From: an uncultured Allosphingosinicella sp.
Lineage (GTDB): Bacteria; Pseudomonadota; Alphaproteobacteria; Sphingomonadales; Sphingomonadaceae
Reading direction: 5' to 3'
Length of the DNA: 17,104 nucleotides
Assembly (NCBI GenBank): GCA_934539295.1
Contig: CAKTCN010000050.1
Span: 1-17,104, forward strand
Shown: positions 1,086-11,834 of the stretch, one piece after another
How the letters are laid out: each line of letters begins with the position of its first letter
Numbering within the stretch: the first letter of the stretch is position 1
Translations under genes and position numbers: made by a program
Notes under the pieces: model-generated
The model's database searches: none
What the model was told of the DNA's origin: nothing
What the model saw: only the letters and a program-made list of their open reading frames with translations

Positions 1086-1115
1086 TTGACATCCACCCGC
1101 GCACGAGCGCAATTG
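1086..1115 (+). promoter_or_regulatory. Possible promoter of the phhA leader transcript
   Basis: A perfect consensus -35 hexamer TTGACA lies at 1086-1091, in the gap just after putR. The -10 is poor: CAATTG at 1110-1115 (18-bp spacer) or TTGTAT at 1113-1118 (21-bp spacer). If the first is right, transcription would start at about 1122, on the A of the leader ATG. The call depends mainly on the -35 match and on the position just ahead of the leader peptide. Confidence 0.35.
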
Positions 1116-1121
1116 TATCCC

Positions 1122-1226
1122 ATGTCGAACACGGCCCTTCTTGGACAAGACGCTGCAGCCCTTGGCTGGCGTGGGCCGTTTTATGGCTATTCCTATTATT
1201 TTACCGCCCGGGCGGAGACGGACTGA
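1122..1226 (+). CDS. Phe/Tyr-rich leader peptide of the phhA attenuator
   Basis: This 34-codon ORF (ATG 1122, TGA 1224-1226) lies between putR and phhA. Residues 20-27 read FYGYSYYF: four Tyr and two Phe in eight codons (1179-1202). This cluster resembles the regulatory codon runs in the PheA and TrpE leader peptides. A strong intrinsic terminator begins 30 bases after the stop codon and precedes phhA, whose substrate is Phe and product is Tyr. Two features support a real leader: the codon cluster falls just before a segment (1208-1215) able to pair with the terminator's 5' arm, and the stop codon is placed so that a terminating ribosome would cover that segment. There is no clear Shine-Dalgarno upstream, so initiation may be weak or leaderless. 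The role is inferred from sequence alone. Confidence 0.72.
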   Translation: MSNTALLGQDAAALGWRGPFYGYSYYFTARAETD

Positions 1227-1265
1227 CGCGCTGATCACATCGCGACCAATCCCGACCCCGCCCGG
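1208..1265 (+). promoter_or_regulatory. Putative antiterminator pairing of the phhA leader RNA
   Basis: CCGGGCGG (1208-1215) is perfectly complementary over 8 bases to CCGCCCGG (1258-1265). The second segment includes most of the 5' arm of the terminator (1256-1262), so the two structures exclude each other. A ribosome paused at the early Tyr codons (1182-1190) would leave 1208-1215 free and favour this pairing. A ribosome reaching the stop codon would cover it and favour termination. Segment 1204-1215 is itself a 12-base palindrome and could fold on its own into a 4-bp hairpin. No folding energies were computed. Confidence 0.5.
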
Positions 1266-1286
1266 ACCTTCCAGGCGGGGTTTTTT
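1256..1286 (+). terminator. Rho-independent terminator/attenuator ahead of phhA
   Basis: A 7-bp GC stem pairs CCCCGCC (1256-1262) with GGCGGGG (1274-1280). It can be extended after one mismatch by an inner GGA/TCC stem (1264-1266 with 1270-1272), and six T residues follow (1281-1286). It ends about 25 bases before the phhA start and follows the leader peptide rather than putR directly, which makes attenuation more likely than simple termination of putR. Confidence 0.85.
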
Positions 1287-1311: not shown

Positions 1312-2166
1312 GTGGCACAGGATGCAGAGACCATGAAGGCGGCGAACGAGACCGCTCCTACGCCGCCGCCGGGCGCTGCGGCCGACTGGACGGTGCCGCA
1401 GCGCTGGGACGAGCTGACAGCCGAGGACCATTGGGTGTGGGATACCTTGTTCGCGCGCCAGCAGACCCTGCTCCATGGCCGCGCGGTGGAAGCATTCGAG
1501 CGGTCGCTCGATGTGCTGCACCTCTCACGTCCCGGCGTGCCGAACTTCGACGAATTGTCGGACAAGCTTCATGCCCGCACCGGTTGGAGCGTGGTGGCCG
1601 TACCCGGCCTCGTGCCCGACGACGTCTTCTTCAAGCATCTGAGCCAGCGGCGGTTTCCCGCCGGCAACTTCATCCGTACGGCGGGACAGCTCGACTATCT
1701 GGAGGAGCCGGACGTCTTCCACGATGTGTTCGGCCACGTGCCGCTGCTCGCCCAGCCCGAGATCGCCGACTTCATGCAGGCGATGGGCGAACTGGGCTTG
1801 GAAGCCTTGCGCGCCGGCCAGCTTCATCGCCTCGCCCGCCTCTACTGGCACACGGTCGAGTTCGGGCTTGCGCGCGAGGATGGCAACCTGCGCATCTATG
1901 GCGCGGGCATCCTGTCGAGCTTCGGCGAGGCGCATTACTCATTGGACAGCGCCAAGCCGCACCGGATTGCGTTCGACCTGCCGCGCGTGCTGCGCACCAA
2001 CTATCGCACCGACAGCTTCCAGGCGAACTACTTCGTGATCGATCGGTTCGAGGATGTGCTGAAGCTGCTCCAGGAGAATGACTTCGCCGCCCTGTGCCGC
2101 GATCTCGATGCCCTGCCCGACATCAATCCCGGCACGTTCGGCGACGAGGACCGGCTCGCCGCCTGA
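1312..2166 (+). CDS. phhA: Phenylalanine 4-monooxygenase (phenylalanine hydroxylase)
   Basis: PhhA hydroxylates phenylalanine to tyrosine with tetrahydropterin and oxygen at a mononuclear iron. The 284-aa product has the bacterial single-domain aromatic amino acid hydroxylase form, without the regulatory ACT domain of animal enzymes. The iron ligands are visible: His137 and His142 in FHDVFGHVPLL and Glu183 in WHTVEFGL, nearly the same numbering as the Chromobacterium enzyme. GTG 1312 was chosen because AAGGA (1299-1303) lies 8 bases upstream. ATG 1333 (277 aa) is a fair alternative, with AGGA 10 bases ahead. The in-frame ATG 1183 is unlikely because the terminator would then lie inside the gene. 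The Phe/Tyr leader upstream suggests expression rises when charged Tyr or Phe tRNA is scarce, so PhhA may serve tyrosine supply here as much as phenylalanine breakdown. Confidence 0.95.
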   Translation: MAQDAETMKAANETAPTPPPGAAADWTVPQRWDELTAEDHWVWDTLFARQQTLLHGRAVEAFERSLDVLHLSRPGVPNFDELSDKLHARTGWSVVAVPGLVPDDVFFKHLSQRRFPAGNFIRTAGQLDYLEEPDVFHDVFGHVPLLAQPEIADFMQAMGELGLEALRAGQLHRLARLYWHTVEFGLAREDGNLRIYGAGILSSFGEAHYSLDSAKPHRIAFDLPRVLRTNYRTDSFQANYFVIDRFEDVLKLLQENDFAALCRDLDALPDINPGTFGDEDRLAA

Positions 2167-3178: not shown

Positions 3179-4891
3179 TCAGAGCGAAGCCAGATACCCG
3201 GCCCGATGCACGAAGTCGCCGAAATGCTCGCCGGCTTCCCGCTCCCGCCCATAGCGGCCGAGCATCTCGCCGAGGATCTCCAGGATCGCCGCCTCGCCGA
3301 TATTTTCGCGATACAGCGTGTTCAGCCGCTCGCCATGGAAGCCGCCGCCGACCCACAGGTTGTACTTGCCGGGCGCGCGGCCGGTCAGTGCGATCTCGGC
3401 CACATAGGGGCGCGAGCAGCCATTGGGGCAGCCGCTGATCCGGACGGTGATCGGCTCGTCGATCAGGCCGTTGGCCGCCAGTATCTCTTCAATCCGCGTG
3501 GCGAAGTCGGGCATGTACCGCTCGGCCTCGGCCATCGCGAGCACGCAGGTCGGCAGCGCGACGCAGGCGATCGAGCTTTGCCGCATTGCGCTCAGCCGCT
3601 CGCTGTCGCCAAGGCCATGGTCGGCGAGCAAGGTCTCGATCTGCGCCCGGCTCTCCGGCGGGATGTCGGCGATGATGAGGTTCTGGTTGGGCGTCAGCCG
3701 GAACGCCCCCTTATGGACCTGCGCGATCGCACGCAGGCCATCCATGAAGCGCTGGCGTTCGAAGTTCGACACGCGGCCGCTCGGGATGAACACCGTGTAG
3801 TTGAACCGGCCATTGTCATTCTCGCGCCAGCCGTAGAGGTCGCCGTTGGAGGTGAACTCGAAGTTGCGCACGGGATCGAAGTCGAAGCCCATGCGGCGCT
3901 CGATCTCGCCCTTCACCCAATCCACACCCTTGTCGTGCACGGTGTACTTGAATCGCGCGCGCGGCCGGTGCTTGCGGTTGCCGAAGTCGCGTTGCGTCCC
4001 CATCACCGCGTCGGCGGCGATGTTGAGCTTGTCCTTGGGCACGAAGCCGACCACGTCGGCGAGGCGCGCAAAGGTCTCCGGATCGCTGTCGTTGCGGCCC
4101 ATGCCGCCGCCGATCGAGACGTTGAAGCCTTCCAGGCTCCCGTCCGCCCCCGTCACCGCGATGAAGCCCAGATCCTGCGTGTAGATGTCGATGTCGTTCG
4201 ACGGCGGCACCGCGAAGCCGATCTTGAACTTACGCGGCAGATATTGCTTCCCGTAGAAGGGCTCTTCCTCCTGGCTCGTCGCCACGCGCTCTTCGCCATA
4301 CCATATCTCGTGATAGGCATGGGTCTTGGGGATCACATGGTCGCTGAGCGTCTTGGAGAGCGCCGCGACCTCGGCATGGAGCGCGGAATCGCGCGGATCG
4401 GCCGTCGCCATCACGCCGCGCGCATCGTCGCCGCAGGCCGCGATCGTGTCGAGCAGCACGTCGTGCAGCCCCTGAATGATCGGGCGGACATCCTCCTTCA
4501 CCACCCAGTGGAACTGGAAGGTCTGGCGCGTGGTCAGGCGGATGGTGTTGCCGCCATGCTGGCGCGCAAGCTCGTCGATGCGCAGCCACTGTTCGGGCGT
4601 GCACACGCCGCCAGGCAGTCGCACGCGGATCATGAAGGTATAGGCCGGCTCCAGCTTCTGCCGGCGGCGCTCGTCGCGGATGTCGCGGTCGTCCTGCTGA
4701 TAGATTCCGTGGAACTTCATCAGCTTGTTGTCTTCGAACGTGACGCTGCCCGTGATGCGGTTGAGCAGGCTCTCGTTGATCGTGCCGCGCAGGTAATCGC
4801 TCTTCACCTTGAGCGTTTCGTCGGGCCCGAGATTCTCCAGCGGCTGCGAGATGTCCGCGCTGCGGTCGACGGTGGTGGTGGTGTCAGTCAT
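3179..4891 (-). CDS. cysI: Sulfite reductase (NADPH) hemoprotein, beta subunit
   Basis: CysI reduces sulfite to sulfide with six electrons, using siroheme coupled to a [4Fe-4S] cluster and electrons from CysJ. At 570 aa it matches the usual family length. The four cluster/siroheme cysteines are visible as C443 and C449 (CVALPTC) and C488 and C492 (SGCPNGCSRPY). The substrate-binding basic region includes TIRLTTRQTFQFHW and KHRPRARFKYTV. The ATG at 4891 is preceded by AGAGGG about 8 bases upstream. It is the last gene of the cys operon and is separated from cysJ by 112 bp carrying a palindromic repeat, so it may be partly uncoupled from cysJ in expression. Confidence 0.97.
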   Translation of the reverse strand: MTDTTTTVDRSADISQPLENLGPDETLKVKSDYLRGTINESLLNRITGSVTFEDNKLMKFHGIYQQDDRDIRDERRRQKLEPAYTFMIRVRLPGGVCTPEQWLRIDELARQHGGNTIRLTTRQTFQFHWVVKEDVRPIIQGLHDVLLDTIAACGDDARGVMATADPRDSALHAEVAALSKTLSDHVIPKTHAYHEIWYGEERVATSQEEEPFYGKQYLPRKFKIGFAVPPSNDIDIYTQDLGFIAVTGADGSLEGFNVSIGGGMGRNDSDPETFARLADVVGFVPKDKLNIAADAVMGTQRDFGNRKHRPRARFKYTVHDKGVDWVKGEIERRMGFDFDPVRNFEFTSNGDLYGWRENDNGRFNYTVFIPSGRVSNFERQRFMDGLRAIAQVHKGAFRLTPNQNLIIADIPPESRAQIETLLADHGLGDSERLSAMRQSSIACVALPTCVLAMAEAERYMPDFATRIEEILAANGLIDEPITVRISGCPNGCSRPYVAEIALTGRAPGKYNLWVGGGFHGERLNTLYRENIGEAAILEILGEMLGRYGREREAGEHFGDFVHRAGYLASL

Positions 4892-4907
4892 CGTTCTATC
4901 CCTCTGC

Positions 4908-4992
4908 CGTCACCCCGGACTTGATCCGGGGTCCCGCTTCTTGCCTCTCGTCCGAAGAAGAAGCGGGATGCCGGATCAAGTCCGGCATGACG
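4908..4992. repeat. REP-type palindrome inside the cysJ-cysI gap
   Basis: The left arm (4908-4942, starting CGTCACCCCGGACTTGATCC) and the right arm (4958-4992, ending GGATCAAGTCCGGCATGACG) are imperfect inverted copies of about 35 bases around a 15-base loop. The sequence type (CCGGACTTGATCCGG followed by CCCGCTTCTT) is a familiar dispersed palindrome of sphingomonads. It fills most of the intergenic gap, just upstream of the cysI ribosome-binding site. Confidence 0.8.
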
Positions 4993-5003
4993 TTGTAAAA
5001 ACA

Positions 5004-6803
5004 TCAATACACATCCCGCTGGTAGCGGTGGTCGGTCTGGAGGTTGCGGACGTAGGTTTCCGCGCCCTCGCGGCTGAGGCCGCCTTCGTTTTCCACGACC
5101 GAGATCAGCGCCTCGTGCACGTCCGGCGCCATGTTGTTGGCATCGCCGCACACGTAGAAATGCGCACCGGATTCGAGCCAGGCGAACAGCTCCGCCGCCC
5201 GCTCACGCATGCGGTCCTGAACATAGATCTTGCCCCCATGGTCGCGCGAGAAGGCGACGTCCATGCGGGTGAGGACGCCGTCGTCCATCAGCTGCTGCCA
5301 CTCGGTCTGGTAGAGGAAGTCGCTGCGGAAGTTTCGGTCGCCGAAGAAGATCCAGTTTTGGCCCCTCGCCTCGCGTGCCTCGCGCTCCTGCATGAAGGCG
5401 CGGTAGGGCGCGATGCCGGTGCCGGCGCCGACCATGATCACCGGCACGTCGTCGCCGGGCAGGCGGAAATGCTCGTTGCTCTGGATATAGACCGGCAGGG
5501 TCGATCCGACTTCCATCCGGTCGGCGAGCAGGCAGGAGGCGACGCCGTGACGCCGCTCGCCATGCAGGTCGTAGCGGACCGGCGAGACGGTGATATGCGC
5601 CTCCCCCGGCACCGACGCCATGCTCGAAGCGATCGAGTAGAGGCGCGGCTGGAGCGGGCGCAGGCCTTGGAGAAAGGTCTCGGGATCGATGCCCTTCAGG
5701 GGGAATTGGCGGAGCACGTCCACCAGATGGTGGTTGTAGAGGAAGGCGGTCCGCTCGGCTCGGCGGTCCTCCTGGCTGAGCGCGTTGAGTTCGGCGGCGC
5801 CGGTCAGCTTGCCCCAATGTTCGAGCAGGCGCGGGGTCGAGACGGTGATCTCATACTTGGACGCCAGCGCCTCGCCGAGCGTGGTACTTGCGCCCTTCAC
5901 CGTCACTGGCGCGTCGGCGGAGAGGCCTGCCGCGTCCAGCACCGACGCGACCACCGCCGGGTCGTTGCTGCACTCGATGCCGATCGCGTCGCCCGGCTGG
6001 TAGGTGATGCCGGAGCCCGACAGGTCGATCTCCACATGCCGCGTCTCCTTGGTCGAGTGGCGGCCGACGATGGTCTGGTTCTCGATAATCGTCGCGGAGA
6101 ACGGGTTCTTCTTGTCGTAGGCCGACGCGGTCGCGGGCGCAGCGAAGGCTGCGGCCTTGGCTACGGCCGGCACGTCTGAGGCGAGCTTGTCGAGCAGGGC
6201 GGTGCTCCAGGCGGCCGCGGGCTCGTCATAGTCGATGTCGCAATCGACACGGTCGGCGATCCGCTCGGCGCCAAGCTCGGCCAGGCGCTTGTCGACGCGC
6301 TTGCCGGCCTCGCAATAATATTCGTAGGTGGAGTCGCCGAGTGCGAGCACGGAGAAGCGCACGCCGTCGAGCTTGGGCGCGCGCGCGCCCTCCAGGAACT
6401 CGAAGAAGCCGACCGACGGCTGGGGCGGATCGCCCTCGCCATAAGTGCTGACGATCACCAGCAGGTCCTGCTCGTCCTTCAACCGGCGCGTCTTGTAGTT
6501 CGCCATGTCGAACAGTTCGGCCTGAAGACCCTTGGCCTGTGCGTCGGCGGCGAGTGCCTTGGCGAGCGCGGTGCTGTTGCCCGTCTCGGTCCCGTAAAGG
6601 ATGGTCAGCGTGCGGCCCGCCGATGCCTGGGGCGCGGACGGAAGCGCTGCCGCCTGCCCGCCGGACAGGCCCGCGCCGAGCCCGGCGAAATAGCCGCTAA
6701 GCCAATTGGCCTGTGCCGCATTGAGGCCGCTCTGGATCGCGTGGACATGCTGCCACTGCTCCAGCGTGAGCGAGCCTTCCGGAAAGTTCGTCGGTGCCGT
6801 CAT
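5004..6803 (-). CDS. cysJ: Sulfite reductase (NADPH) flavoprotein, alpha subunit
   Basis: CysJ carries electrons from NADPH through FAD and FMN to CysI. The 599-aa product has the normal order: an N-terminal extension, an FMN flavodoxin domain (about 66-205, with LYGTETGNSTALA and STYGEGDPP), an Ala-rich linker (about 210-232), an FAD domain (RLYSIASS at 388-395) and an NADPH domain (VGAGTGIAPYRAFMQER about 458-474, YVCGD 550-554). It ends in RDVY, the aromatic terminus usual in this reductase family. The ATG at 6803 lies 31 bp after the cysN stop with a G-rich stretch (GGGGGAACGAG) upstream. It belongs to the same transcription unit as cysN and cysI. Confidence 0.97.
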   Translation of the reverse strand: MTAPTNFPEGSLTLEQWQHVHAIQSGLNAAQANWLSGYFAGLGAGLSGGQAAALPSAPQASAGRTLTILYGTETGNSTALAKALAADAQAKGLQAELFDMANYKTRRLKDEQDLLVIVSTYGEGDPPQPSVGFFEFLEGARAPKLDGVRFSVLALGDSTYEYYCEAGKRVDKRLAELGAERIADRVDCDIDYDEPAAAWSTALLDKLASDVPAVAKAAAFAAPATASAYDKKNPFSATIIENQTIVGRHSTKETRHVEIDLSGSGITYQPGDAIGIECSNDPAVVASVLDAAGLSADAPVTVKGASTTLGEALASKYEITVSTPRLLEHWGKLTGAAELNALSQEDRRAERTAFLYNHHLVDVLRQFPLKGIDPETFLQGLRPLQPRLYSIASSMASVPGEAHITVSPVRYDLHGERRHGVASCLLADRMEVGSTLPVYIQSNEHFRLPGDDVPVIMVGAGTGIAPYRAFMQEREAREARGQNWIFFGDRNFRSDFLYQTEWQQLMDDGVLTRMDVAFSRDHGGKIYVQDRMRERAAELFAWLESGAHFYVCGDANNMAPDVHEALISVVENEGGLSREGAETYVRNLQTDHRYQRDVY

Positions 6804-6834
6804 TGTTACGCTCGTTCCCCCAGATGGGCGCCGT

Positions 6835-8502
6835 TCAGATCACCCATTCGTCTGTTCCTTCGTCGCTGTCATGGCCGGCGTCGATGCGGCGGCCCGGATG
6901 CGCTTCTTGCTTGTCCACGTCGAGCGTGATCAGCACATGACCGCCCGCCCCCGCCGCCAGCTTCGCGACCTCACGCGCGCGCCGCGCCAGTTCGGGCGTG
7001 TCGCCTTCAGCCACGTCGCTGGCAATGCCTTCGCGCAGCGCCGCTTCGTCCAGCACCAGCACGGTGCGGCCGAGCGCCCTAAGCTGCTGCTCGTGCTTGC
7101 CGGCAAGACCGGCGCGCTCCGCCTTGGTCGCACCCGCAACCCAGGTGATGCGGCTGGCATCATCCACCGGCTCGACGCTCTCGGCGGCGTGGAGGAAGTC
7201 GGTGACCATGCCGGCGGCAACGGTGGCGTGGCTGATCTTGTCGATCAGGATGAAGCCGCCAAGCTCCCGGCTCTCGGCATAAGCGATGGCCGGCACCGCG
7301 CGGTCGAGCCGGAGCTCGGCCAGGCCGATATCGTTGAGCGCCAGCGGGCGGCCATCCTGCCGCGCCATGCTGTTGACGTCCACGACGTGGCGCACGGCAT
7401 CGACGCTGGCCGACAATGTCTGCGCGCCCATCTTGAGCCAGTAGGAACGGCCGGGCACCAGAGCCTCGTCCGACATCCAGACGAGATTGGCGCTGAGCCC
7501 ACCGACGGGCGTTGAAGGCGCGGTCGCGATCGTATCGCCGCGCGAGCAGTCGACCTCGTCGGTGAAGGTGAGCGTCACCGACTGGCCGGCAATCGCCTCG
7601 TCCAGGTCGCCGTTCATGGTGGCGATCCGCTCGACGCGCGACTGGTGGCCCGACGGTAGGACGGTGATGCGGTCGCCCACCTTGATGCCGCCGCTGGCGA
7701 TGCGGCCGGCATAGCCGCGGAAGCTGCTGTTCGGGCGATTGACCCATTGCACCGCCATGCGGAACGGCGCCAGTTCCTCACCGGCACCCACCGGTACAGT
7801 TTCGAGATGCTCGATCAGCGAAGGGCCGTCATGCCAGGGCATGGCGTCGCTGCGGCTGCTGACATTGTCACCGGCAAGGCCCGACAGCGGGATGGCCGTG
7901 AAATCCGCGATCCCGACCTCGGCCGCGAAGGCGCGGTAGTCGGCGACGATCTCATCGAACCGTGCCTGATCGTAGCCGACCAGATCCATCTTGTTGACCG
8001 CCAGCACGATGCTGCGGATGCCGAGCAGGTGGACGAGGTAGCTATGCCGCCGCGTCTGCGTCAGCACGCCCTTGCGCGCATCGATCAGGATCACGGCCAG
8101 GTCGGCGGTGGACGCGCCGGTGACCATGTTGCGGGTGTACTGCTCGTGGCCGGGCGTGTCGGCGACGATGAACTTGCGCTTGTCGGTCGCGAAGAAACGG
8201 TAGGCGACGTCGATGGTGATGCCCTGCTCGCGTTCGGCGCCGAGGCCGTCGACCAGCAGAGCGAAGTCGAGCGCTTCGCCCTGCGTTCCCATCTTGCGGC
8301 TGTCGCTGGCGAGCGCGGCAAGCTGGTCCTCGAACAGCATCTTGCTGTCGTAGAGCAGCCGCCCGATCAGCGTCGATTTGCCGTCATCCACGCTGCCGCA
8401 GGTGATGAAGCGCAGCAGCGACTTGCGCTGGTTCGCCTCCAGATATTGCTCCACCTCCGCCCGCGCAGTGCGGGCGGCCGTGATATCGTAGGCAGCGGCC
8501 AT
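6835..8502 (-). CDS. cysN: Sulfate adenylyltransferase subunit 1 with a degenerate APS kinase-like tail
   Basis: CysN is the GTPase that drives APS formation by CysD. G motifs are intact: GSVDDGKST (36-44), DTPGH (115-119) and NKMD (170-173), followed by EF-Tu-like domains 2 and 3 to about residue 440. The protein has 555 aa, longer than plain CysN (about 475) and shorter than CysN-CysC fusions (about 630). Residues 452-540 still align by eye with APS kinase: WVAG at the strand before the P-loop, RALGRTVLVLDEAALREGI in place of the usual ALG..TYLLDGDNVRHGL, and ARRAREVAKLAAGAG in place of IRRVAEVAKLM. The P-loop GxSGxGKST is replaced by GATKAERAG, and the end is truncated. The tail therefore cannot be an active kinase. 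The start overlaps the cysD stop by one base. Confidence 0.95.
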   Translation of the reverse strand: MAAAYDITAARTARAEVEQYLEANQRKSLLRFITCGSVDDGKSTLIGRLLYDSKMLFEDQLAALASDSRKMGTQGEALDFALLVDGLGAEREQGITIDVAYRFFATDKRKFIVADTPGHEQYTRNMVTGASTADLAVILIDARKGVLTQTRRHSYLVHLLGIRSIVLAVNKMDLVGYDQARFDEIVADYRAFAAEVGIADFTAIPLSGLAGDNVSSRSDAMPWHDGPSLIEHLETVPVGAGEELAPFRMAVQWVNRPNSSFRGYAGRIASGGIKVGDRITVLPSGHQSRVERIATMNGDLDEAIAGQSVTLTFTDEVDCSRGDTIATAPSTPVGGLSANLVWMSDEALVPGRSYWLKMGAQTLSASVDAVRHVVDVNSMARQDGRPLALNDIGLAELRLDRAVPAIAYAESRELGGFILIDKISHATVAAGMVTDFLHAAESVEPVDDASRITWVAGATKAERAGLAGKHEQQLRALGRTVLVLDEAALREGIASDVAEGDTPELARRAREVAKLAAGAGGHVLITLDVDKQEAHPGRRIDAGHDSDEGTDEWVI

Positions 8503-9407
8503 CAGAAATAGCCTTCCTGCTTCTTGCGCTCCATCGACGAGGCGCCTTCCTTGTCGATCACGCGGCCCTGGCGCTCGGAGGTGGTGGCGACCAGCATTTC
8601 CTGGATGACTTCAGCCAGCGTGGAGGCATTGCTCTCGACCGCGCCGGTCAGCGGGTAGCAGCCGAGCGTGCGGAAGCGGATCGAGCGCTCCACCGGCACT
8701 TCGCCGGGTTCCAACGGGAAGCGGTCGTCATCGACCATCAGCAGCGTGCCGTCACGCTCGACGGTCGGGCGCGGCGCGGCGAGGTAGAGCGGCACGATCG
8801 GGATATTCTCGGCATAGATATACTGCCAGATGTCGAGCTCGGTCCAATTGGAGATCGGGAAGACGCGGACGCTCTCGCCTACCGCTTTCCGCGCATTGTA
8901 GAGGCTCCATAATTCCGGCCGCTGGTTCTTGGGGTCCCAGCGATGGCTGGCCGAGCGGAAGGAGAAGATGCGCTCCTTCGCCCTCGACTTCTCCTCGTCG
9001 CGCCGGGCGCCGCCGAAGGCCGCGTCGAAGCCATATTTGTCGAGCGCCTGCTTGAGCCCTTCGGTCTTCCACATATCGGTGTGGAGCGCGCCATGGTCGA
9101 ACGGGTTGATGCCCCGCTCCATCGCCTCGGGATTATGGTAGACGATCAGCTCCATGCCGCTTTCCTTGGCGACGCGGTCGCGCAGCGCATACATGTCCCT
9201 GAACTTCCAGGTCGTATCGACGTGGAGCAAGGGGAAAGGCGGCGGCGCGGGGTAGAAGGCCTTGCGCGCCAGATGCAGCATGACCGCGCTGTCCTTGCCG
9301 ACCGAATAGAGCATCACCGGCCGCTCGGTCTCGGCCACTACCTCGCGCATGATGTGGATGCTCTCGGCCTCGAGCTGCTCGAGATGGGTCAGTTTGCGGG
9401 CGGACAT
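8502..9407 (-). CDS. cysD: Sulfate adenylyltransferase subunit 2
   Basis: CysD is the catalytic subunit that makes adenosine 5'-phosphosulfate from ATP and sulfate, paired with CysN. The 301-aa length is normal. The PP-loop motif appears as [18 protein letters not shown] (from residue 34), and the conserved [20 protein letters not shown] and [15 protein letters not shown] segments are present, as is the C-terminal ERKKQEGYF. The ATG at 9407 follows the cysG stop with no gap (TAGATG), and its own stop overlaps the cysN start, so translation is probably coupled along the operon. Confidence 0.97.
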
Positions 9408-10856
9408 CTATGCGGCACTCTTCAGGAGGTGATCGAGAGCGGCCGGCGCGAGCTGATCGCGCGCGACGCGGCCAAGGATGACGAGGACGGGCACGGAGGG
9501 CGGAAGGTCTTCCGCAAGCTCAGCTATCTGCGACACGGTGCCGGATACATGCTGCTGCCCCGGCAGCGTCGCAGATGCGATTGCCACGGCCGGCATGTCG
9601 GCCGCGAGACCGGCAGCGAGGGCCGCACCGACGAACTGCCGCAGCGTCTTGCGCGGCATGTAGAGGATGGTGGTCGCCACAGGATCGGCCATCGCCTGCC
9701 AGTCGATGTCGGCCGGCAGCTTGCCGTCGGCGCCATGGCCTGTGACGAACTGCACGCGGCGCGCTTCCTCCCGCTCCGTCAGCGAGAAGCCCAAAGCGGC
9801 GGCGGCGCCCTGCGCGGCGGAGATGCCAGGCACGATCGACACGTCGATCCCGGCGGCACGGCACGCCTCGATCTCCTCGGTCGCGCGGCCGAAAATAAGC
9901 GGGTCGCCGCCCTTCAGCCGCACCACCGTCTCGCCCGCCTGCGCGAGCGCGACGATGCGGGTGCAGATGTCCTTCTGGCTGCACGACGGGCCATGCCCCG
10001 CCTTGCCGACCGCGATCCGCTTCGCCTCGCGCCGGGCGAGTTCCAGCACCTCGGGGCCGACGAGATCGTCATAGAGGATAACGGTCGCCGATTGCAGCGC
10101 ACGCACGGCCTTCAGCGTCAGCAGCTCGGGATCGCCCGGCCCTGCGCCGACCAAAGTGACGCTGCCCTGCCGCGCGGCCTGGCGGGCCAGCAGGGTCTCG
10201 AAATCCTGCTCGCCAGGCGCCTCGTCGATCCGGCTCCACGCCGCATCGGTGAAGCGCCGCCAGAAGGCGCGGCGCTCGGCGAAGCTGCCCAGCCGCTGCT
10301 TGACGCGGGGACGCCAGCTCTTTGCCGCCCGCGCCCAGTCGGACAGGCCGAGCGGCAGGATGCTCTCGACGCGCGCACGGATCGACTGCCCCAGCATCGG
10401 CGCAGCGCCATCGGTCGAGATCGCCAGCACCACCGGCGCGCGGTTGACGATGGTGCCGAAGATGACGTCGCACAGCTCGGTGCGGTCGATAATGTTGACC
10501 GGCGCGCCGGCGGCACGCGCTGCGGCGATGAAGGCATCGGCCTCCCCATCATCGGCGATGTCGGCCACGGCCAGCGCCGCATTGTCGAGATCGGCCATCT
10601 CCCAGCGGCGTGCCAGGACGGTGACGGAGCCGGACACCGGCTGCGCGACAAGGCCGGCGAACAGCCGCGCCGCCGCATCGTGGACGGCCAGCACCAGCAC
10701 GTCCGCGCCGGCCGCGCAAAGCAGTTCCGCCTTCCACAATGCGCCTTCCGAACTGCCGGCGACGACGACCTTGCGCCCTTCCAGCCGGTGGAAGAGCGGC
10801 AGGTTCGGCAGCGGTGCAATACGCGCCAGTGTTTCCTGGGGCTCGCGCGCGGTCAC
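9408..10856 (-). CDS. cysG: Siroheme synthase (precorrin-2 dehydrogenase/ferrochelatase + uroporphyrinogen methyltransferase)
   Basis: CysG makes siroheme from uroporphyrinogen III, the cofactor that CysI needs. The GTG at 10856 is taken as start because it overlaps the cysH stop as GTGA and gives 482 aa, close to the usual CysG size; the longer open frame upstream lies inside cysH. Residues 1-200 form the dehydrogenase/chelatase half and about 230-470 the methyltransferase half, with VGAGPGDPELLTLKA (about 236), VRLKGGDPLIFGR (about 312) and VPGISAAQGAAAALG (about 342). The NAD-binding loop reads VVVAGSSEGALWKAELL, which lacks the usual GGG, so cofactor binding in this half may differ. Placement inside the cys operon ties cofactor supply to sulfite reductase. 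Confidence 0.94.
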   Translation of the reverse strand: MTAREPQETLARIAPLPNLPLFHRLEGRKVVVAGSSEGALWKAELLCAAGADVLVLAVHDAAARLFAGLVAQPVSGSVTVLARRWEMADLDNAALAVADIADDGEADAFIAAARAAGAPVNIIDRTELCDVIFGTIVNRAPVVLAISTDGAAPMLGQSIRARVESILPLGLSDWARAAKSWRPRVKQRLGSFAERRAFWRRFTDAAWSRIDEAPGEQDFETLLARQAARQGSVTLVGAGPGDPELLTLKAVRALQSATVILYDDLVGPEVLELARREAKRIAVGKAGHGPSCSQKDICTRIVALAQAGETVVRLKGGDPLIFGRATEEIEACRAAGIDVSIVPGISAAQGAAAALGFSLTEREEARRVQFVTGHGADGKLPADIDWQAMADPVATTILYMPRKTLRQFVGAALAAGLAADMPAVAIASATLPGQQHVSGTVSQIAELAEDLPPSVPVLVILGRVARDQLAPAALDHLLKSAA

Positions 10857-11635
10857 AGCGCTTTCGCCCGGCTGAGCTTGCCGTCTGCGCCGACATGGAG
10901 GCCGCATTCCTTGGCCTCGTCGCTCTCCCACCACCAACGGCCGGCTCGCTCGGGCTCGCCCGGCTGGATGGCACGGGTGCACGGCGCGCAGCCGATCGAG
11001 ACGAAACCCTGTGCGTGCAGTTCGTTCACGGGGATGTTCTCGGCCGCGCAGAAGGCGGAGACCTGATCGCGCGTCCAGTCATGTATCGGTGCGAACTTGA
11101 TCAGATCCTTGTCGGCATCCCAGCTTGCCAGTGCGACGCCGCCGCGCTGCCCCGACTGATCGGCGCGCAGACCCGTCACCCACGCCTCGGCGGCCGCCAG
11201 CGCGCGGCCGAGCGGTTCCACCTTGCGCACGAAGCAGCAGTCGGTCCGCGCTTCCCTGGAATAATAAAAGCCGTTGATACCAGCGTCCGCGACATGGGCG
11301 GCAAGCTTGTCGCCCTGCGGATGGTAGGAATGGATCCGCCGCCCGTAGCGCATCTCGGTGTCGGCCCACACCTTGTAGGTCGACGGGAACAGCCGCCCGG
11401 TGTCGAGCGTCACCACGTCGATGTCGAGGCCCGCTTCGAAAATCAGGTGCGTAATCGCCTGGTCCTCGATGCCGAAGCTGGTGGTGAAGACGATGCGTCC
11501 AGGCACCATCTCACGCAAGGCAACCAGCCGCCCGGCAGGATGATCTACGGACGTGCCCGCGATCGCCGACAGGCTTGCCACGACCGCCTGACCGCGCGTG
11601 CCCGGGTCCTCTTCCAGCTTTTCCATGATGCCCAT
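10853..11635 (-). CDS. cysH: Assimilatory adenylylsulfate (APS) reductase, iron-sulfur type
   Basis: The enzyme reduces activated sulfate to sulfite with thioredoxin. It has the PAPS/APS reductase fold: TTSFGIEDQAITHLIF PP-loop region, LDTGRLFPSTY, and the C-terminal catalytic ECGLH (Cys244). The Cys pair in TDCCFVRKVEPL (133-134) and GCAPCTRA (216, 219) are the four ligands of the [4Fe-4S] cluster that mark APS reductases and the plant-type CysH. Enzymes strictly using PAPS lack them. APS as substrate fits the loss of an active APS kinase in this operon. The start is uncertain among TTG 11644, ATG 11635 and ATG 11626; ATG 11635 gives 260 aa. It is the first gene of the cys operon. Confidence 0.94.
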   Translation of the reverse strand: MGIMEKLEEDPGTRGQAVVASLSAIAGTSVDHPAGRLVALREMVPGRIVFTTSFGIEDQAITHLIFEAGLDIDVVTLDTGRLFPSTYKVWADTEMRYGRRIHSYHPQGDKLAAHVADAGINGFYYSREARTDCCFVRKVEPLGRALAAAEAWVTGLRADQSGQRGGVALASWDADKDLIKFAPIHDWTRDQVSAFCAAENIPVNELHAQGFVSIGCAPCTRAIQPGEPERAGRWWWESDEAKECGLHVGADGKLSRAKAL

Positions 11636-11834
11636 TGCCGCCAATCCGCGAAGAAACCGGAGCGAAAAGGCCCCGTCGAGCGAGCGGAAATATGGCCCGC
11701 GGCGGGGCAGATCAATCGCTTCAGGTTAGTGGGGCAGCAGATTGCAAGCTCCGTGCCGAGCCTTCGATCCTGCGGCAATATCCTTCCAAGGATCGGCGTC
11801 CGGACAGCGGCGATCCCCTCCCGCAACAAGAAGG

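Follow-up and report, generated by a model that had tools for sequence, protein, structure and literature searches.

Phenylalanine hydroxylase is an oxygen- and pterin-dependent enzyme that is usually classed as a breakdown enzyme. In the window – the whole 17,104-nucleotide stretch of DNA analyzed here, from an uncultured Allosphingosinicella – the gene for this enzyme, phhA, lies behind a short tyrosine-rich open reading frame and a hairpin with a T run. A first, sequence-only reading took these parts for a Phe/Tyr attenuator in front of a phhA used to make tyrosine. The locus thus raises the questions of whether the parts form an attenuator, which amino acid it would read, and what such a switch would mean for the role of PhhA in this organism and its relatives.

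The leader and phhA in the window

The features of the locus are collected in Table 1. The leader ORF (MSNTALLGQDAAALGWRGPFYGYSYYFTARAETD) has Tyr codons that begin at 1182, 1188, 1194 and 1197 (codons 21, 23, 25 and 26) and Phe at codons 20 and 27, which make up the eight-codon run FYGYSYYF (1179–1202; four Tyr, two Phe). None of 3000 dinucleotide shuffles of 1076–1311 contained an ORF with at least four Tyr per eight codons; the leader is an observation beyond chance. A direct check of the sequence bore out the 34-codon ORF, FYGYSYYF, the six T and the perfect 8-base complement of arm 2 and arm 3 at the coordinates first given for them. The strong stem described downstream of the ORF is present as well, but begins 29 bases past the leader stop, not 30.

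Table 1. Coordinates of the phhA leader features in the window
Feature	Position	Strand	Details
TTGACA, likely -35 box of the leader promoter	1086..1091	+	36 nt 5' of the leader ATG
Leader ORF	1122..1226	+	34 codons; ATG 1122, TGA 1224-1226; Tyr run kept in relatives
Arm 2, putative antiterminator 5' arm inside the leader ORF	1208..1215	+	CCGGGCGG; covariation
Intrinsic terminator	1256..1286	+	stem 1256-1262/1274-1280 plus 1264-1265/1271-1272; six T 1281-1286
Arm 3, putative antiterminator 3' arm, part of the terminator 5' arm	1258..1265	+	CCGCCCGG
phhA, phenylalanine 4-monooxygenase	1312..2166	+	start GTG 1312 or ATG 1333; TIGR01267, PF00351

The name phhA holds, as the gene scores 301.1 bits against a TIGR01267 cut-off of 264.75. 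The gene upstream of the leader had been called putR; it belongs to the Lrp/AsnC family by Pfam and falls below the curated cut-off of all eight NCBIfam models listed, so that the name was a guess. The regulators adjoining the window phhA are one Lrp/AsnC and one GntR protein, and phhB is not directly beside it, as it would be in the Pseudomonas-type catabolic phhABC arrangement. Rfam families include amino acid leaders and the T-box; no family of release 15 reached its gathering score anywhere in the window, and the region 1060–1330 had two matches only, both far below that score. Elsewhere in the window, the minus strand at 3179–11644 carries an apparent sulfate assimilation cluster (a sulfite reductase, a flavoprotein, an EF-Tu-like GTPase, two PAPS reductase-domain proteins and a tetrapyrrole methylase), followed by a TonB receptor and a glucose-6-phosphate dehydrogenase.

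Distribution of the leader

The leader set is found before phhA in 65 loci from 65 genomes, the window counted in, and in at least three genera of Sphingomonadales. The closest phhA genes among the searched genomes (80% identity) were those of G231 and G001, both of one genus. This genus is probably Allosphingosinicella, order Sphingomonadales; two PhhA protein records under that name share 83 and 79% identity with the window PhhA. Within the genus of G231, 23 of 26 genomes have a phhA match, and in 22 of these 23 the Tyr leader and terminator are directly upstream of the gene. The 23rd, G306 (locus L111), has N across the leader and an intact terminator. The same arrangement precedes phhA in G046 and G126, both of a second genus, and in G002 and G199.

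Of 298 genomes, 255 gave some match (E≤0.01) to an RNA model, R1; since eight genomes scored above 60 bits and the next scored 41.5, strong matches alone were counted. The weak matches in G240, G276 and G147 do adjoin phhA, on its upstream side. In a second draw of genomes, 22 of 396 had an R1 match at E≤1e-7. Plasmid records contained phhA-like stretches, but their leader region was matched weakly and briefly only. Among 23 family genomes with phhA but neither tyrA nor a strong R1 match, the phhA upstream regions of three (G276, G240, G079) contained further leaders, with other arm sequences, and no Tyr leader was seen in the other 20. These leaderless loci are L037, L152-L157 and L159-L171, from genomes G008, G012, G020, G021, G053, G130 and others.

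In the genus of G240, to which G002 also belongs, 57 of 61 genomes carry phhA. Forty new loci were added to the set – 29 fetched by protein from this genus, and 10 plus L184 by RNA model, the latter not all from the same genus. At least two Tyr per nine codons followed by a terminator were found in 37 of 39 new loci (L184, where no phhA was found, set aside), and in 27 of the 29 protein-fetched loci. L192 and L196 keep the leader with a single Tyr.

An initial scan for four Phe or Tyr per nine codons missed many true leaders and was replaced. In an objective control test that required two Tyr per nine codons near the stop, then a hairpin and a T run, 60 of 67 leader loci were positive vs 0 of 106 other phhA loci (104 distinct). 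L192 and L196, excluded from the 65 by script, were counted as leader loci in this test and in the PhhA tree. The 65 further exclude L111, whose leader is masked by N; L120 and L121, which are pieces of a second phhA stretch; L184, where no phhA was found; L158 and L173, from the same genomes as L186 and L193; and duplicates of G001, G002 and G188.

Genome G301 has its main phhA copy near 3.02 Mb of contig C1 and the second, fragmentary stretch (L120, L121), with almost the same leader, near the start of that contig; this duplicate may stem from overlapping ends in the assembly of a circular contig. In L001, a SAM-I/IV riboswitch scores above its gathering score downstream of phhA (4391–4498, plus strand).

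Descent of the leader-bearing PhhA

One branch (SH-aLRT 99, one change, by a quick tree method) divides a tree of 170 PhhA proteins into 66 that have the leader and 104 that lack it, so that on this sample the leader was gained or lost once. The midpoint root of the tree does not tell gain from loss. L119, a match of 26 residues, was omitted.

Start of transcription

Among 25 loci of the window type, 24 have a TTGAC box 35–38 nt 5' of an in-frame ATG (for five of these, the nearer ATG was identified by eye); in the remaining locus, L106, an in-frame GTG was likewise identified by eye at 35. From this spacing the transcript probably starts at or next to the ATG. A TTGAC-like box is found in 29 of the 65 loci, nearly all of the window type; loci of the second type are mostly without one, and none was seen in the second genus. 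The promoter claim is therefore limited to window-type loci.

The conserved residue is tyrosine

The last 14 codons of the 65 leaders comprise 187 Tyr and 10 Phe among 910 codons, while five window genes have 71 Tyr in 2516 codons. The ratio of TAT to TAC is 157:30 in the leaders vs 34:37 in the five window genes. The conserved leader residue is Tyr and not Phe, which narrows the Phe/Tyr sensor first proposed to its tyrosine half. With 10 Phe against 187 Tyr, phenylalanine is ruled out as the sensed amino acid, and the two Phe codons of the window, nearly absent in relatives, are incidental.

Terminator and antiterminator

The window leader (1122–1290) folds better than its shuffles, with a z of -2.14 and 4 of 200 shuffles equally good. 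Pair counts for both structures rest on an alignment of 27 leaders. For the terminator, all nine pairs are formed in all 27 sequences, and double changes occur at three pairs, a number matched by none of 500 shuffles. For the antiterminator, at least seven of nine pairs are formed in 24 of 27 sequences (the exceptions, L002, L085 and L118, have 5, 6 and 3), and one pair changes from G-C to A-U in six sequences. Covariation of the antiterminator on this alignment is modest – the percentage paired was reached by 18 and the score by 13 of 500 shuffles, and the number of pairs with double changes by 365 of 500.

Arm swaps across the 65 loci gave a clearer difference. Own arms pair with a mean of -20.98 kcal/mol vs -17.99 when swapped, a gap reached in 0 of 5000 permutations. 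The own partner beats the foreign mean in 54 of the 65 loci and is no better in 11. Arm pairs that interchange include CGAGGTTGG/CCAACCTCG, GGAGGCTGG/CCAGCCTCC, GCGGTGG/CCACCGC and GCGATGG/CCATCGC. Only 17 of 30 loci have an arm duplex that is better than in shuffled leaders at p<0.05. Directly 3' of the leader stop, CGCGC (1227–1231 in the window) is present in 39 of the 65 loci, with both arm types; it is part of neither the terminator nor the 8-bp antiterminator.

The geometry first described, in which a stalled ribosome frees arm 2 and a ribosome at the stop codon covers it, was found in predicted folds of the RNA before the terminator 3' arm is made, but not at equilibrium once that arm is present. 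In the earlier state, with a ribosome on at least one Tyr codon, the 5' arm of the terminator is paired upstream (probability >0.5) in 28 of 30 loci, vs 3 of 30 with the ribosome at the stop codon; the values for the window are 0.74 and 0.16. In equilibrium folds that include the 3' arm the terminator dominates most stalled states; of 29 scored loci (L001 left out), only 5 have a Tyr state with the antiterminator above 0.5. Since equilibrium favors the finished terminator, the switch must work during transcription, where the order of synthesis decides.

TyrA, HmgA and the role of PhhA

TyrA was searched for with PF02153 at its curated cut-off. Of 298 genomes sampled from the family to which G002 belongs, 263 have a match above it. 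In a control on 14 genomes, this 298-genome search missed TyrA in one and the other TyrA search in none. Of 30 leader genomes searched, 25 had no PF02153 match above cut-off, a count to which incomplete assemblies may contribute: 17 of the 22 that belong with G231 in one genus, plus G002, G046, G126, G199, G276, G240, G079 and G147. Five leader genomes keep tyrA (G300, G302, G304, G313 and G318). The match in G314 is below cut-off, as is, we infer from the tally, that in G147 (E 5.1e-4); G199, G240 and G276 were counted among the genomes without any match.

In the 298-genome draw, TyrA is missing in all eight genomes with R1 matches above 60 bits vs 27 of the 290 others (Fisher p 1.7e-8, uncorrected for kinship). 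These eight genomes are rows of the alignment of R1 itself, picked by leader and not by tyrA. A wider comparison, in which tyrA is missing from 12 of 12 leader genomes vs 23 of 286, was set aside as biased because G276, G240 and G079 had been found by way of the phhA upstream regions of tyrA-less genomes.

All but one of the 26 genomes in the genus of G231 have the tyrosine breakdown gene hmgA. It was not found in the leader genomes G046, G126, G199 and G276, where tyrA was not found either. From this pattern, PhhA is probably biosynthetic in all leader genomes and may also feed breakdown in most. A phhB family member is present in 31 of 33 related genomes searched and in 29 of 30 genomes with a leader (G306, with its masked leader, included); in G079, G240, G276 and G199 it lies 0.3–2.2 kb from phhA. 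Neither phhA nor tyrA is found in G055 and G131, and G310 has tyrA but not phhA, a pattern that reflects either incomplete assemblies or tyrosine auxotrophs.

In some leader genomes, neighbors of phhA belong to aromatic biosynthesis; these were chosen by eye from 30 loci, and the chosen ones alone were searched. Above curated NCBIfam cut-offs are aroB (G231) and DAHP synthase (G300), and above Pfam cut-offs are prephenate dehydratase (G001) and chorismate mutase with a class II DAHP synthase (G317). Shikimate dehydrogenase-like neighbors in G316, G313 and G318 score below the NCBIfam cut-offs, the one in G316 having its Pfam domain above cut-off.

Proposed mechanism

The locus has a leader Tyr run, an intrinsic terminator, and a mutually exclusive antiterminator that shares the 5' arm of the terminator. 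The element is very probably a ribosome-mediated transcription attenuator through which tyrosyl-tRNA is sensed and phhA is regulated as a gene of tyrosine synthesis. From the parts, their conservation and co-variation, and the frequent absence of tyrA, all read from sequence, we infer translation of the leader, stalling, a response to tyrosine and this physiological role.

As the promoter box suggests, the transcript would begin with the leader ATG or immediately beside it. With tyrosine plentiful, the ribosome would reach the stop codon and cover arm 2, and arm 3 would pair with arm 4 to form the terminator ahead of phhA. Under a shortage of charged tRNA-Tyr, the ribosome would stall within the Tyr run and leave arm 2 free to pair with arm 3 once the latter is made; RNA polymerase would then continue into phhA, whose product would make tyrosine from phenylalanine. 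The sequence-only reading had proposed an attenuator with phhA as tyrosine maker, and had named conservation in relatives and a missing tyrA as checks. All three elements – Tyr run, terminator and alternative pairing – are kept in relatives, and tyrA is absent above cut-off from 25 of the 30 leader genomes, which supports that proposal.

Alternative explanations

The hairpin could be the plain terminator of the upstream regulator, preceded by a chance Tyr-rich ORF, with the phhA promoter past the terminator. The terminator is indeed the most constant part, and equilibrium folds favor it in most states. Yet the upstream genes vary among relatives, some of them running in the opposite direction, and the leader is kept nonetheless. 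The Tyr run and the arm complementarity are conserved together, along with the promoter box in loci of the window's type, and the set occurs in none of the 106 other phhA loci and none of the 3000 shuffles. This makes a plain terminator very unlikely. Nor is it much easier to see the ORF, or the terminated leader RNA, as kept for an action in trans, as a small protein or sRNA in the manner of peTrpL and rnTrpL of Sinorhizobium. The part of PMC7298713 cited here describes rnTrpL as starting with its ATG and having trans functions, and the leader in this study seems to start at its ATG likewise, but the length of the peptide (<20 to 41 residues) and its N-terminal part are unconserved, and the conserved peptide tail coincides with an RNA arm. 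As the main reason for conservation, trans action is thus hardly to be expected; a trans function is compatible with attenuation and may add to it.

A different objection accepts the attenuator but holds that phhA serves mainly to break down phenylalanine, the switch merely trimming its expression when tyrosine is plentiful. It would fit that 25 of the 26 genomes in the G231 genus retain hmgA and that five leader genomes retain tyrA. An attenuator that opens when tyrosine is scarce has the wrong sign for breakdown, though, and the 25 of 30 leader genomes without tyrA above cut-off, the four with neither tyrA nor hmgA, and the aromatic biosynthesis genes adjoining phhA in some genomes also speak against a mainly catabolic role, which is unlikely. 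A tyrosine-sensing attenuator of a biosynthetic phhA is the preferred explanation.

Relation to known systems

The mechanism is a known one, that of classical attenuators; as far as the literature was searched, the target gene and its amino acid are new. The sequence-only reading knew of no described case for phhA, and none came to light here: the literature matches listed, from a search that covered few subscription journals, included no paper describing a leader or attenuator of phhA. The trp, his and pheA attenuators of enteric bacteria are ribosome-mediated, and in the cited part of PMC1183508 the trp and his models depend on the order of synthesis. The phhA leader resembles them in its ORF with a run of regulatory codons, its exclusive antiterminator and terminator, and its stalled- and finished-ribosome geometry. 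It differs in its Tyr codons, in its target, phhA, which is usually regarded as catabolic, and in having no Rfam match. The trpLE(G) attenuator of Sinorhizobium meliloti is likewise alphaproteobacterial, and its rnTrpL transcript is stated to start at the leader ATG (PMC7298713, in part), as the phhA transcript probably does; it has Trp codons before trpE, where the present leader has Tyr codons before phhA.

Putative attenuators before tyrA operons, taken from Merino's site, are given in Table 7 of PMC1173090. They too would attenuate a tyrosine-forming step, but their target is the TyrA dehydrogenase operon, and no phhA attenuator is named in that part of the paper. For Dyella japonica, tyrosine synthesis by phenylalanine hydroxylase has been proposed where TyrA is missing (GapMind, PMC7311316). 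PhhA is there, as here, the proposed tyrosine-making enzyme in the absence of TyrA; the lineage is another one, the basis is mutant fitness, and the portion of PMC7311316 cited mentions no leader or attenuator. Regulation of phhA is also known from gammaproteobacteria, where, according to the cited part of PMC5343134, PhhR/TyrR activates phhAB for phenylalanine breakdown; unlike the leader, it is a DNA-binding activator.

Conclusions

In a clade of Sphingomonadales of at least three genera, tyrosine synthesis has likely moved from TyrA to PhhA, together with an inherited Tyr-sensing attenuator and with tyrA mostly lost. A Tyr-reading attenuator that was inherited with one PhhA lineage, in genomes mostly without TyrA, is regulatory evidence for biosynthesis. 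By means of the leader, a biosynthetic role of PhhA can be called from the DNA, and an apparent gap in tyrosine synthesis would be filled for whole genera. If this is true, the tyrosine supply of these genera would depend on oxygen, since tyrA is lost in most members of the clade.
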